Positions 28,775 through 34,680 of a stretch of DNA of 36,815 nucleotides are shown piece after piece (the first letter of the stretch is position 1; each line of letters starts with the position of its first letter). Position numbers and translations under genes: made by a program. The notes under the pieces were generated by a model. That model worked only from the letters and a program-made list of their open reading frames with translations, was not told the origin of the DNA and searched no databases. This stretch comes from Bacteroidales bacterium (GTDB lineage: Bacteria > Bacteroidota > Bacteroidia > Bacteroidales > UBA1715). Where the stretch lies: contig JAQICB010000099.1 of the NCBI GenBank assembly GCA_027858745.1, positions 1-36,815 on the forward strand, in the 5' to 3' direction.

Positions 28775-28805
28775 TTTGCATTATGATTTTTTATCATTAA
28801 TTTTG
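28775..28805 (+). promoter_or_regulatory. Consensus Bacteroidota promoter of the ilv operon
   Basis: TTTG (28775-28778; the whole reads TTTGC), a 19-base spacer and TAATTTTG (28798-28805) match the -33 / -7 consensus exactly. Transcription should begin near 28811, so the leader ORF would have almost no 5' UTR. Confidence 0.8.
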
Positions 28806-28816
28806 TTACCGTGAAA

Positions 28817-28882
28817 ATGATTATGAAAAATTTATTAAACATAGTGCTTGTCGTTGTTGTTGTCATTTCAGAAATGAAGTGA
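28817..28882 (+). CDS. ilv leader peptide, rich in Val/Leu/Ile
   Basis: The 21-codon ORF contains LLNIVLVVVVVI; 12 of its 21 residues are Ile, Leu or Val, with five Val codons in a row. It sits between a consensus promoter and a terminator directly before ilvD, exactly as E. coli ilvL does before its ilv operon. Starts at ATG 28817 or ATG 28823 (or GTG 28811, near the predicted 5' end) are all in the same frame. Its stop codon lies in the 5' arm of the antiterminator, so a ribosome finishing the peptide would block that arm. The function is inferred from the arrangement. Confidence 0.85.
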   Translation: MIMKNLLNIVLVVVVVISEMK

Positions 28883-28956
28883 GAGAATGACTTCTGCATA
28901 GTACTTTTGTAAAAAATATACAAGCAGCATTCTCTTACGAGTTTGCTGCTTTTTTT
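28869..28956 (+). promoter_or_regulatory. Transcription attenuator of the ilv operon
   Basis: Three mutually exclusive stems are visible. The protector is GAAGT (28876-28880) with ACTTC (28890-28894), or alternatively CAGAA (28869-28873) with TTCTG (28892-28896). The antiterminator is GTGAGAGAATG (28879-28889) with CATTCTCTTAC (28928-28938), 11 bp with one G-U. The terminator is AAGCAGCA (28922-28929) with TGCTGCTT (28944-28951). The antiterminator's 3' arm overlaps the terminator's 5' arm, and its 5' arm sits in the protector. A ribosome stalled on the Val codons would leave the antiterminator free; one at the stop codon would cover its 5' arm. Confidence 0.85.
28922..28956 (+). terminator. 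Attenuator terminator before ilvD
   Basis: The 8-bp stem AAGCAGCA / TGCTGCTT has a symmetric TT/TT internal loop and an inner CTC-TTAC-GAG hairpin, followed by seven T (28950-28956). It ends 30 bases before the ilvD ATG. Confidence 0.92.
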
Positions 28957-28986
28957 ATTATTAATTATGTATTATTAAAAAAGATT

Positions 28987-30816
28987 ATGGGATATACATT
29001 ACGAAGTGCAACTTCAACTCAAGGAAGATTAATGGCTGGAGCTCGTAGCTTATGGCGTGCTAATGGCATGAAAGAAGAACAAATCGGTAAACCGATTATA
29101 GCTATAGCTAATTCATTTACGCAATTTGTACCGGGGCATGTGCATTTACATGAAATCGGACAAAAAGTAAAAAAACTAATAGAAGACAAAGGTTTTTTCG
29201 CAGCAGAATTTAATACAATTGCAATTGACGATGGTATTGCTATGGGACATACCGGAATGTTATATTCATTACCATCTCGTGAGGTTATTGCCGATAGTAT
29301 TGAATATATGTGTAATGCACACAAAGTTGATGCTTTAGTGTGCATTAGCAATTGTGATAAAATTACACCGGGAATGCTCATGGCGTCTATGCGACTCAAT
29401 ATTCCAACAATTTTTGTGTCGGGCGGACCAATGGAAGCCGGTGTAATTGATGATGAAAAACTTGACTTAATTGACTCTATGGTTATGTCTTTAGACTCTG
29501 ACGTTGACGACAAAACTCTCGATTTAGTTGAGAAAAATGCCTGTCCAACTTGTGGGTCATGTTCGGGAATGTTTACAGCAAATTCTATGAATTGCCTTAA
29601 CGAAGCATTGGGAATGGCATTGCCGGGTAACGGAACAATTGTGGCAACTCATGCAAATCGTACGAAGTTGTTCGAACAAGCTGCGGAAAAAATAGTTGAT
29701 ATTACGAAAGATTATTATTTTAATGGAAACGATGCAGTACTTCCCCGTTCGGTTGCAACACGCACCGCATTTATGAATGCTATGACACTTGATATTGCAA
29801 TGGGTGGCTCAACAAATACGGCTTTGCATTTACTTGCTATTGCTCAGGAGGCTGAGGTTCAATTTTCTATGAAAGATATGGACGGACTTTCACGTAAGGT
29901 GCCATGTGTATGTAAAGTTGCACCAAACAGCAAAGAATATCATATTGAGGATGTCAACCGTGCCGGTGGTATTCTTGGTATTATAAATGAACTTGACAAA
30001 GCGGGACTTATTGACTCTTCTGTAATGCGTGCTGATGGTTTAACGCTAAAACAAGCACTTGCAAAATATGATATTACAAGTGATTCTGCCGACAAGAATG
30101 CAATTGAAATATATCGAAGTGCCCCGGGCGGAAAACCAAATTTAGTTATGGGCTCGCAAGCATCTACTTACAAAGAATTAGATATAGACCGTGAACATGG
30201 CTGCATTCGAAGTGTGCCACATGCATATACTCAAGACGGTGGATTAGCAATTCTGTTTGGAAATATTGCTGAAAAAGGTTGTATTGTTAAAACTGCCGGT
30301 GTTGATGAATCAATTTTCACATTTACCGGAACTGCACGAGTGTTTCATTCACAAGAGGATTCTGTTGATGCTATTTTAAAAGGGTATATCAAAGCAGGAG
30401 ATGTGGTTGTAATTATATATGAAGGTCCGAAAGGTGGTCCGGGAATGCAAGAAATGTTATACCCGACATCATATTTAAAATCTATGCATTTAGGAACAGA
30501 TTGTGCCTTGATTACTGACGGAAGATTTTCCGGCGGAACATCAGGCTTATCGATTGGACATGTATCTCCCGAAGCTGCAAGTGGTGGCGCAATCGGTTTA
30601 ATTAAAGATGGCGATAAAATTAAATTTGATATTCCAAACAGAAAGGTGGATGTGCTCATTTCCGACGAAGAATTAGCAGAGCGTCGTAAAGCAGAGGAAG
30701 CAAAAGGCAATATGGCATTTAAACCGGTTCGTGACCGTGTTGTATCAAAAGCACTGAAAGTGTATGCACAAAATGTGTCATCTGCTGATTTGGGCGCAGT
30801 AAGATTAATCGATTAA
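28987..30816 (+). CDS. ilvD: Dihydroxy-acid dehydratase
   Basis: IlvD dehydrates the dihydroxy acids of the valine and isoleucine pathways to 2-keto acids. The 609-residue protein is of E. coli type: [26 protein letters not shown] with Cys123, SGGPMEAG and [15 protein letters not shown] with Cys192, cysteines that bind the Fe-S cluster. The C-terminal swivel domain has [21 protein letters not shown]. It is the first structural gene after the leader attenuator and has no Shine-Dalgarno sequence. The next gene starts 24 bases later. Confidence 0.97.
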
Positions 30817-30840: not shown

Positions 30841-32211
30841 ATGAGAATGTCTAAAAAATATGATGCTTTTGTTACCTGGGCATCAGGCATTAAAATTCCA
30901 ACGAATAAAAAAATACTTGACCAGATGGCCGCGTGGTCATCAACGCTCAATAATAAAGTAAACCGAAATACTATAATGTCGTGGCGGGTAATGGAGACAA
31001 ACAGTATGTTTGCTGACAGAATTTCGGATGTGCCAAAATCGTATATCCGTGAGATTCTTAAAGTAGCTGTTTCTCCAAATATTATTTCGTTTGCAGGTGG
31101 TTTGCCAAATAGAGATTTGTTCCCTGTTCAGGAATTACAAGATGCAGCAAATGCGGTGTTTAATGACAATCCCAAAGATGCCTTGCAATATAGTAATACG
31201 GAAGGCTATTTACCGCTTCGCGAATTTATTTCTCGTCGGTACAAAGAGGTAAAAGGCTTGAATATTGAACCAAAAAACATTCTTATAACTACCGGTTCGC
31301 AACAAGCACTCGATTTGTTAGGAAAAACATTCATAAATGAGAAAGATAAGGTTATTATTGAAAAACCGGGGTATCTTGGTGCTATTCAATTATTTTCGAT
31401 TTATAAAGCTCGATTCTCTCCGGTAACATTGGAAGAGGATGGAGTTAATATTGCTGAATTAAAAAAAGCATCGAAAAAGCGAAACACAAAACTCATGTAT
31501 ACTGTTCCCAATTTTCAGAACCCGACAGGAATTACCTATTCGAATGAAAAACGGGAAGAAATTGCTGAGGTGTTACGCGGCAAACCACTTATTCTTATCG
31601 AAGATGACCCATATGGAGATTTACGATATAGAGGTGAGCAACAATCTTCGTTTATGAATTTTTTGCCCGAACAAACAATTTTGTTAGGTTCTTTTTCAAA
31701 AACCGTTGTGCCTTCGTTTCGTACAGGATGGATTGTGGCTCCGGATGAAATTATGGAAAAGCTTATTGTGGCAAAACAAGCATCTGATTTGCATACCAAT
31801 TATTTTACTCAAAAACTTTTGGTTCAGTATCTCGATAAAAATGATTTGAATGATCATATTTCAAAAATTAAAGATGTATACGGTCATCAATGTTTAGCAA
31901 TGATTGATAGTATCAAACGGCACTTTCCCGAAGAGGTTTCGTATACCTTACCCGAAGGTGGCATGTTTTTGTGGGTAACATTGCCCCATGGCATTTCTGC
32001 AATGGATTTGGTGCAAAAAGCAATTGAAAAAGATGTTGCTTTTGTACCGGGAAACCCATTTTATGTCGATACCGAAGAAACGATTTCGACCTTGCGGCTC
32101 AACTTTTCGTGTGTTGATGAGGCAACTATCGAAACAGGAATAGCAAGTCTCGGACAGGTTATTAAGGATTTTATTGCGAATAAAAAATCAAATAGTATTA
32201 AAAAAAAGTAA
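30841..32211 (+). CDS. PLP-dependent aminotransferase (class I/II, LysN/MocR-like), in the ilv operon
   Basis: The fold type I aminotransferase core starts near residue 56 (MFADRISDVPKSYIREILK, then IISFAGGLPNRDLFP). PLP landmarks are TGSQQALDL (151-159), NPTG (227-230), EDDPYGDLRY (254-263) and the Schiff-base Lys287 in GSFSKTVVPSFRTGW. The closest well-known group is 2-aminoadipate/branched-chain-like transaminases without the MocR DNA-binding domain. Its place between ilvD and ilvB suggests the final transamination to Val, Ile or Leu; that is inference. An N-terminal extension of about 50 residues precedes the core. Starts at 30991 or 31006 are possible, but 30841 shares ATAGACAAA-N-TTATG context with ilvN. 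Confidence 0.88.
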   Translation: MRMSKKYDAFVTWASGIKIPTNKKILDQMAAWSSTLNNKVNRNTIMSWRVMETNSMFADRISDVPKSYIREILKVAVSPNIISFAGGLPNRDLFPVQELQDAANAVFNDNPKDALQYSNTEGYLPLREFISRRYKEVKGLNIEPKNILITTGSQQALDLLGKTFINEKDKVIIEKPGYLGAIQLFSIYKARFSPVTLEEDGVNIAELKKASKKRNTKLMYTVPNFQNPTGITYSNEKREEIAEVLRGKPLILIEDDPYGDLRYRGEQQSSFMNFLPEQTILLGSFSKTVVPSFRTGWIVAPDEIMEKLIVAKQASDLHTNYFTQKLLVQYLDKNDLNDHISKIKDVYGHQCLAMIDSIKRHFPEEVSYTLPEGGMFLWVTLPHGISAMDLVQKAIEKDVAFVPGNPFYVDTEETISTLRLNFSCVDEATIETGIASLGQVIKDFIANKKSNSIKKK

Positions 32212-32286: not shown

Positions 32287-32324
32287 GAAACATCTATAAT
32301 AATCTAACACAGATTAGATGTTTC
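32287..32324 (+). promoter_or_regulatory. Bulged hairpin in the aminotransferase-ilvB gap
   Basis: GAAACATCT (32287-32295) pairs with AGATGTTTC (32316-32324), and after a 5-base bulge AATCT pairs with AGATT around AACAC. No T tract follows, so it is not a standard terminator. The 171-base gap holds nothing else except an 18-codon ORF without branched-chain bias. A processing, stabilising or binding site is possible. Confidence 0.55.
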
Positions 32325-32382
32325 GTATGAGCATTACAAATCAATTATACTAAATTATATGAAAAATTAAGGTACATATATT

Positions 32383-34083
32383 ATGAATGCAACAAACGAA
32401 CATATAACCGGCTCTGAAGCCTTATTGCGAATTTTGATTGAAGAAGGGGTTGATACTATTTTCGGATATCCCGGCGGTGCTATTATGCCGATTTATGACA
32501 GATTATTTGATTTTGGTGATACACTTACGCATATTTTAGCTCGTCACGAACAAGGTGCGGTACATGCTGCACAAGGCTATGCTCGAGCAACGGGTAAAGT
32601 TGGGGTATGTTTTGCAACATCGGGACCGGGTGCAACAAATCTCACAACCGGTATTGCCGATGCGATGCTCGATTCTACACCTTTGGTTGCTGTTACCGCT
32701 CAAGTTGTTTCACCACTTCTTGGTACAGATGCCTTTCAGGAAATTGATGTAATTGGTATTACCATGCCAATTACGAAGTGGAATTATCAAATTACGTCTG
32801 CAGAGGAAATTCCGGAAACTTTGGCTAAGGCATTTTATCTTGCACAAACAGGTCGTCCCGGACCGGTTTTGATTGATATTACAAAAGACGCACAAATTCA
32901 AATGATGAATTACGCATATCAAAAATGCACCTATATGCGCGGCTATTATCCCTATCCGAAAATTAAACAATCACAAATAGACGAAGCCGTTTCACTCATA
33001 AATACGGCAAAAAAACCATTAATTTTAGCCGGACAAGGGGTAAATATTTCGAAAGCACATAAAGAATTAGCGGCTTTAGCCGAAAAAGCGGGTATTCCGG
33101 TAGCAACAACGATTTTGGGATTAAACAATATCGGCTCCGACAATCCCTATTACGTTGGAATGCTGGGAATGCACGGAAATTACGGCCCGAATATTAAAAC
33201 GAATGAAGCCGATGTGATTATTGGTGTTGGTCTTCGTTTCGATGACCGCGTAACGGGTAATACCGCAGTATATGGAAAACAAGCGAAAATTATTCATATA
33301 GAAGTTGATGCTGCTGAAATCGGTAAAATTGTTAAACCTGCAGTTGCTGTTCATGCCGACGCAAAAGGTGCATTGAAGGTGTTGACTGATAGTGTACGTG
33401 CAAACACTCATCCGGAATGGTTGCAAGAATTTAAGGATGCCTATAAGACTGAATATGAAAAGATTATTAAAAAAGATACGCTTCCTGAAGCCGGAGAAAT
33501 AAAAATGGGTGAAGTTATTAAACGCATCTCCGACAAAACCAACGGACAAGCTATTGTGGTTACTGACGTTGGTCAGCACCAAATGGCAACATGTCGGTAT
33601 TACGATTTTAAAGAAGGCTCGGAAATTATTACTTCCGGCGGTTTGGGTACCATGGGATTTGGCTTACCGGCTGCTATGGGGGCAAAAGTTTCAAGTCCAC
33701 ATAAAGATACCGTTGTGTTTAGTGGCGACGGTGGTTTTCAAATGACAATTCAAGAATTAGGAACAATTGCAACGAATAATATTGGCGTTAAAATGATTGT
33801 GTTGAATAATCATTATTTAGGAATGGTTCGTCAGTGGCAAGAACGCTTTTTTGATTCTCGCTACTCATTTGTTGATATTGAAAGTCCCGATTTTATTACC
33901 ATTGCAAAAGGGTACGGAATAAAAGGGGTAAAAGTAACCGAGCGAAAAGATTTGGCTCAAGCTATCGAAGAAATGTTTGCCGAAGAGGGTCCGTTTTTAT
34001 TGGAAGTTTCGGTTGAAAAACAAGAAAATATTCTTCCGATGATTGAGCCGGGACTTGGTGTTGGTGATATTAAATTGGAGTAA
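32383..34083 (+). CDS. ilvB: Acetolactate synthase, large catalytic subunit
   Basis: This TPP enzyme makes acetolactate and acetohydroxybutyrate, the first common step of Val and Ile (and Leu) synthesis. The protein has 566 residues. The N-terminal domain has [12 protein letters not shown] and the catalytic Glu56 in [16 protein letters not shown]. The FAD-binding middle domain is present. The TPP motif begins GDGGFQM (about residue 448) and ends VKMIVLNN. The C-terminal end is complete ([17 protein letters not shown]). ilvN follows 45 bases later. Confidence 0.97.
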
Positions 34084-34128: not shown

Positions 34129-34680
34129 ATGGAATCAAAACAATATACAATAGCAGTGTTTACGGAAAATCATATTGGTCTGCTCAATAAAATCACCATT
34201 GTATTTACTCGCCGTAAAATTAATATCGAGAGTCTCACAGTCTCCGAATCGCAAGTTGAAGGAATTCACAGTTTTACTATTGTGATAAATGCTACTGAAG
34301 AAAAGGTTCAAAAAACGGTTGCTCAAATCGGGAAACTGGTTGAGGTCATTAAAGCCTTTTATTACGAAGAGGAACAAATTCATGCTCAGGAAATTGCATT
34401 ATATAAAATGCCTGCTGATGCAATCCAAAGAGGTATTGATATGGGACGTTTTATTCGTGAAAATAATGCACGCATTCTCGATATGACACCGGAATATTTT
34501 GTAATTGAAAAAACCGGCACAAAAGTCGAAACGCAATTATTACTCGAAAAATTAAAACCCTACAATGTACTCGAATTTATTCGTTCGGGGCGGGTTATTA
34601 TTACAAAACCAATGAAACCACTTGTGCAGTATATGAAGGAAAAACATGATGCATATGATTATGTACGTCCGAATAATTAA
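34129..34680 (+). CDS. ilvN: Acetolactate synthase, small regulatory subunit
   Basis: This regulatory subunit of 183 residues has an N-terminal ACT domain (YTIAVFTENHIGLLNKITIVFTRRKINIESLTV, about residues 6-38), which binds valine for feedback inhibition, and the longer C-terminal AHAS-activation domain of the IlvN/IlvH type. It is the last gene of the visible operon; ilvC and the leu genes are not in the window. No convincing terminator is seen after it. Confidence 0.94.
   Translation: MESKQYTIAVFTENHIGLLNKITIVFTRRKINIESLTVSESQVEGIHSFTIVINATEEKVQKTVAQIGKLVEVIKAFYYEEEQIHAQEIALYKMPADAIQRGIDMGRFIRENNARILDMTPEYFVIEKTGTKVETQLLLEKLKPYNVLEFIRSGRVIITKPMKPLVQYMKEKHDAYDYVRPNN

Follow-up and report, generated by a model that had tools for sequence, protein, structure and literature searches.

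A likely ribosome-mediated transcription attenuator in the ilvD leader of a Bacteroidales bacterium

Leader-peptide attenuation is best known from the Proteobacteria; examples also come from Actinobacteria and Firmicutes. In the ilvL-ilvGMEDA, ivbL-ilvBN and leuL systems of Escherichia coli and Salmonella, the leader peptide abounds in residues of the regulated amino acids, and protector, antiterminator and terminator structures are mutually exclusive; both features recur at the ilvD locus considered here. As no Rfam family matched our sequence, we treat the likeness to E. coli ilvL and leuL as a functional analogy; the Bacteroidales leader differs from the E. coli and Salmonella attenuators in its Bacteroidota-type promoter, the lack of a Shine-Dalgarno sequence, the order of the operon genes and a stop codon that usually lies inside the antiterminator arm. 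The authors of a 2010 study knew of no example outside Proteobacteria and Actinobacteria except their own Firmicutes case (PMC2965389). Other papers describe a Leu-rich leader attenuator for Staphylococcus aureus ilvDBC (PMC5794164) and an attenuator for Corynebacterium ilvBNC (PMC11857589, PMC10272879), likewise leader-peptide attenuation of ilv operons outside Proteobacteria, in phyla other than ours. Nearer by kinship, though still a more distant lineage of the same phylum, is Flavobacterium psychrophilum, where leader-peptide attenuation was proposed from transcriptome data before amino-acid biosynthesis operons, in a report whose main text names no ilvD (PMC9723704).

Bacteroid-trp (RF01692, PMC2864571) looks, from its sequence layout, like a sibling of the ilvD attenuator. 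In relatives of our genome it has a Trp-rich leader (in the same genus MFIVFNIWWWHIQSEKN followed by a stop codon) with TAnnTTTG upstream, and in the same-genus case the stop TGA lies inside TTGAGAGG, which pairs with CCTCTCA of the terminator much as in the ilvD leader; amino acid and operon differ. The RF01692 model gave no match above its gathering score in the DNA analysed here and none in the genome it belongs to. Bacteroid-trp elements at loci L122, L120, L116, L115 and L121 have Trp-rich leaders (e.g. WWW) before a terminator and share the general design of the ilvD leader.

We analysed a 36,815-nucleotide stretch of this Bacteroidales genome (the window; features in Table 1), for which the original prediction, made from the letters alone, had proposed a translation-coupled attenuator upstream of ilvD. 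We put the probability that this element controls the ilvD operon as a classical ribosome-mediated transcription attenuator at roughly 93%; conservation, compensatory changes, a masking simulation and the match between leader amino acids and operon all support that reading.

Table 1. Predicted leader elements and genes of the ilvD operon in the window
Feature	Position	Strand	Basis
Inferred promoter: TTTG 28776-28779 (-33 region) and TAATTTTG 28798-28805 (-7 box TAnnTTTG)	28776-28805	+	56/63 matches; Bacteroidota consensus
Leader ORF, (MI)MKNLLNIVLVVVVVISEMK and stop	28823-28882	+	Sequence; TGA stop 28880-28882
Protector, long imperfect hairpin, control codons paired with sequence 3' of the stop codon	28839-28910	+	Minimum-energy fold; approximate limits
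Control codons, five consecutive Val (GTC GTT GTT GTT GTC)	28850-28864	+	Sequence; Val-rich leaders kept in family
Antiterminator 5' arm GTGAGAGAATG, contains stop TGA	28879-28889	+	Sequence; pairing kept in same-genus relative by G-C to A-U change
Antiterminator 3' arm CATTCTCTTAC, overlaps terminator 5' arm and loop	28928-28938	+	Sequence; masking simulation
Intrinsic terminator AAGCAGCA..TGCTGCTT, stem 28922-28951, T run 28950-28956	28922-28956	+	-15.9 kcal/mol; all 11 pairs kept in 12/12 family members
ilvD, dihydroxy-acid dehydratase, first gene of operon	28987-30816	+	NF009103/TIGR00110 above cut-off
Class I/II aminotransferase-like protein	30841-32211	+	PF00155; NCBIfam matches below cut-offs
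ilvB, acetolactate synthase large subunit	32383-34083	+	TIGR00118 above cut-off
ilvN/ilvH, acetolactate synthase small subunit	34129-34680	+	TIGR00119 above cut-off; PF10369

The leader ORF was predicted within 28798-28986, and a check of the sequence found it at those coordinates, with the claimed 14 nt between the five-Val run and the antiterminator arm. An alternative in-frame ATG at 28817 would prepend MI to the leader peptide MKNLLNIVLVVVVVISEMK. The ATG at 28823 is the likelier start, as it lies 17 nt from the TAnnTTTG box, inside the 15-37 nt usual in relatives, versus 11 nt for 28817. TAnnTTTG and TTTG, which we take to be the Bacteroidota-type promoter consensus, add a promoter to the elements listed in the original prediction; TAnnTTTG stands upstream of the leader ORF in 56 of 63 matching loci (defined below) versus 8.3% of shuffled segments, mostly 15-37 nt from the ATG. 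Transcription would thus start near 28811, which would leave a very short 5' UTR, and no Shine-Dalgarno sequence was seen for the leader ORF. Together with its conservation in relatives, the Val run would make this a short leader ORF enriched in codons for the operon's products. Sigma-70-type promoter matches were near background (7 versus 3.9 expected) and were set aside; the scan that gave them did not list the terminator at 28922.

The 11-bp antiterminator and the terminator with its seven T residues are exactly where they had been placed, and bases 28928-28938 are common to both, so that the claim of mutual exclusion stands. Of the 11 pairs in the antiterminator GTGAGAGAATG/CATTCTCTTAC, one is G-U. 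Its 5' arm also holds the leader stop codon, a point absent from the original prediction. The protector stem, also part of that prediction, is present and larger than had been implied: in the minimum-energy fold it includes the Val codons. Folding predicts a long protector for each of the remaining 11 members of the family, too. For the full leader RNA, the predicted structure combines the long protector with the terminator at -38.8 kcal/mol (z -3.5 against shuffles), and z-scores were -3.9 for the terminator alone and -3.8 for the antiterminator fragment. A predicted intrinsic terminator therefore lies between the leader ORF and the first structural gene, with only 30 nt from its T run to the ilvD start in the window.

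We infer the start site, the stalling, the termination and the amino-acid response of the following scheme. A ribosome would begin the leader peptide on RNA started at about 28811. If charged tRNA-Val (probably with Leu- and Ile-tRNA) were plentiful, it would reach the stop codon at 28880 and cover the antiterminator arm, whereupon the terminator would fold and RNA polymerase would leave at the T run. If charged tRNA-Val were short, the ribosome would stall on the Val run, and the free 5' arm would pair with the 3' arm before the 3' half of the terminator is made, so that ilvD and the downstream genes would be transcribed. With no ribosome, the protector would tie up the antiterminator arm and the terminator would form.

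We simulated these states by hiding the RNA up to the leading edge of the ribosome and computing antiterminator and terminator probabilities. A ribosome covers about 12 bases past the first base of the A-site codon, which predicts leading edges of 28862-28874 for stalls on the Val run and of about 28892 for a ribosome at the stop codon. With RNA made to 28945, an edge anywhere from 28854 to 28878 gave an antiterminator probability of 0.97-0.999, and an edge at 28887 or beyond gave 0 for the antiterminator and, on the full leader, 0.999 for the terminator. The unmasked full leader also gave a terminator probability of 0.999. Once the leader is complete, equilibrium favours the terminator at most stall positions (0.88-0.998), and only an edge at 28866 or 28878 lets the antiterminator win; as in other attenuators, the antiterminator would therefore have to fold ahead of the terminator while transcription is under way. 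Without a ribosome, equilibrium on RNA reaching only to 28945 favours the antiterminator (0.966), hence termination without translation would depend on the protector forming first. In computation, then, the antiterminator excludes the terminator; a stall at the control codons releases it and a ribosome that has reached the stop codon blocks it, with the full-length equilibrium mostly on the side of the terminator.

A lack of conservation in close relatives had been named as grounds for rejecting the prediction, and the comparison clearly contradicts it. Taking 400 bases upstream of ilvD from the window and 109 relatives (110 loci, not phylogenetically independent of each other), we scored as a match any leader ORF with a 10-residue run holding at least seven Ile/Leu/Val and, 10-90 bases downstream, a terminator of -8 kcal/mol or lower. 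The combination occurs at 63 of the 110 loci; 550 dinucleotide shuffles of the upstream regions yielded none. When loci are divided by record titles and kinship, all the matches fall among the 87 from Bacteroidota (63/87), with 0/23 in other phyla. Eleven of 12 same-family loci qualify; the twelfth (L024, MKFFQTIVVVQVIFQM) falls just below the threshold with an identical layout. Across homologous ilvD leaders the sequences differ and the layout is constant, with the distance from terminator to ilvD ranging from about 17 to more than 200 nt. Several Prevotella-type loci (L084, L091, L093, L095, L099 and L108) have no recognisable leader or terminator before ilvD, which suggests, as far as sequence can tell, that attenuator control was lost or replaced there. 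Other orders of the class have a few plausible ilvD leaders (L138, L140, L135 and L141) and many loci without one. Some candidates before distant ilvD genes, for example at L147, L149, L156 and L168, appear spurious, being long ORFs that enter coding sequence, and were not counted as support.

Compensatory changes, the other check proposed for the stems, are present in both antiterminator and terminator, across 59 loci and in a 12-sequence family alignment. In 53 of 63 matches the predicted antiterminator arm shares bases with the 15 nt counted from the start of the leader stop codon, so that a terminating ribosome would cover it; in 53 of 63, too, its pairing is stronger than that of 95% of shuffled arms (p<0.05). 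Typically the arm is TGAGAAAGGT, its TGA being the leader stop codon. Paired positions of arm and terminator alternate across the 59 loci, with, for example, 24 A-T versus 15 T-A at one pair. When arms were swapped, own arms paired with their own terminators at -16.7 kcal/mol versus -12.0 for foreign arms, whose register was re-optimised. Among foreign regions, a median of 11% paired equally well, as is explained by the conservation of the motif. These covariation tests pick the best register and so are biased toward the attenuator model. The family alignment (A1) keeps all 11 terminator pairs throughout, including exchanges of C-G for G-C at 28927/28946 and of G-C for A-T at 28924/28949. Antiterminator pair 28879/28938 is G-C in the window and A-T in the same-genus relative. 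Most other family members pair in another register, GAATGGTG with CACCATTC, so that terminator and antiterminator have changed together. These comparisons show co-evolution between antiterminator arm and terminator.

The amino-acid content of the leaders points the same way. The products of ilvD, ilvB and ilvN make valine, isoleucine and a leucine precursor, and an Ile/Leu/Val leader therefore suits the operon. The leuA locus of the same genome (L112, contig C164) has a second leader, MNKTIIILSIILLA followed by a stop codon, which is rich in Leu and Ile and free of Val, with TGAGAGGG near the stop codon and then a terminator, AAACCCTCTT..AAGAGGGTTT. At 17 of 28 loci examined, leuA is preceded by a Leu/Ile-rich leader and a terminator. 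Leu makes up 35% and Val 5% of the leuA leaders within the family, against 10% and 35%, respectively, of its ilvD leaders, a difference which argues that each leader would sense the product of the operon it precedes.

Codon choice within the ilvD leaders is likewise uneven. Relative to the ilvD genes of the same genomes, GTC is enriched 3.6-fold and CTA 6.7-fold, the GTC excess being found at 54 of 59 loci. Theory and experiments with CUA codons in Salmonella indicate that rare-type codons raise the sensitivity of attenuation (PMC1183508). The enrichment agrees with this selective-charging theory of control-codon sensitivity and extends the agreement to a distant phylum, and rare synonymous control codons are common to both systems, CUA in leuL (PMC1183508) and CTA with GTC in the Bacteroidales leaders. 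Alternatively, the protector structure may require GTC, which would also produce the bias. We also considered that GTC might be read by a single tRNA-Val(TAC). This was the only Val tRNA found in our genome, a draft from which some tRNAs are missing, and among the best 30 tRNA loci of genome G003; G015 carries Val-GAC beside Val-TAC. At 1182-2923 of L271 (G015 contig 3) there are tandem tRNA-Val(TAC) copies mixed with several tRNA-like copies that could not be given a proper anticodon.

Other explanations have to account for these same data. A structured leader with a terminator before a biosynthetic operon is also typical of riboswitches, here for a branched-chain amino acid or other ligand, and of T-boxes that read uncharged tRNA, in which case the leader ORF would be incidental. 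Rfam models of T-boxes and known riboswitches, however, gave no match in the window or in the leaders of 19 related loci; conservation extends only to the pairing arms at the stop codon and to the terminator, with no conserved ligand core, and what has been kept is an Ile/Leu/Val-rich ORF of variable sequence whose composition tracks the operon. We consider such a sensor very improbable. We give even less credence to a constitutive terminator with fixed read-through and no regulation, next to an ORF that holds Val codons by chance. Equilibrium folding of the full leader does strongly favour the terminator, but ORF and terminator recur together at 63 of 110 loci as against 0 of 550 shuffles, and the antiterminator pairing coevolves. 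On the strength of conservation and shuffles we rejected a chance Val run.

A last possibility is that attenuation relies chiefly on ilvD translation, on the stability of the transcript or on a Rho-like factor, and that the hairpins act at another step. The short distance from T run to ilvD start in the window would fit this, and species-specific factors are conceivable. Yet a strong stem with a T run is found in all matches, where the search required it, and throughout the family alignment, and a terminator-ilvD spacing as variable as that described above misfits control of ilvD translation initiation. This proposal is improbable, if slightly less so than a riboswitch or T-box, and we retain ribosome-mediated transcription attenuation as the preferred reading.

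The mechanism is thus already known in kind, and what seems uncatalogued is a common Bacteroidales ilvD design: no Rfam family matches the window or the 19 related leaders, and our literature search found no description of this ilvD leader. A comparative study by Vitreschak and colleagues in 2004 reportedly listed some Bacteroidetes/Chlorobi attenuators, and it is possible that ilv cases were described there. We think it probable that a branched-chain attenuator family not in Rfam extends across most Bacteroidales and shares one design with Bacteroid-trp, marked by TAnnTTTG, no Shine-Dalgarno sequence, rare GTC/CTA control codons and a stop codon inside the arm TGAGAAAGGT. If that shared design is real, ribosomes would keep near RNA polymerase in Bacteroidales, at least in leaders. 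Bacteroidales are a dominant gut order, and general attenuation of ilvD and leuA would give these operons a defined regulator; annotators could add a covariance model, and transcription-translation coupling in the phylum would become testable by a simple reporter.

Within the operon, an inverted repeat (GAAACATCTA..TAGATGTTTC, 32287-32326) without a T run lies between the aminotransferase-like gene and ilvB. The aminotransferase-like gene, itself between ilvD and ilvB, adjoins ilvD in only L003, L004, L005 and L024 among the relatives examined and does not do so in the family's g3 genus. Its product is related to the MocR/PdxR aminotransferase domain, with no DNA-binding domain detected, and might be a transaminase of the pathway.
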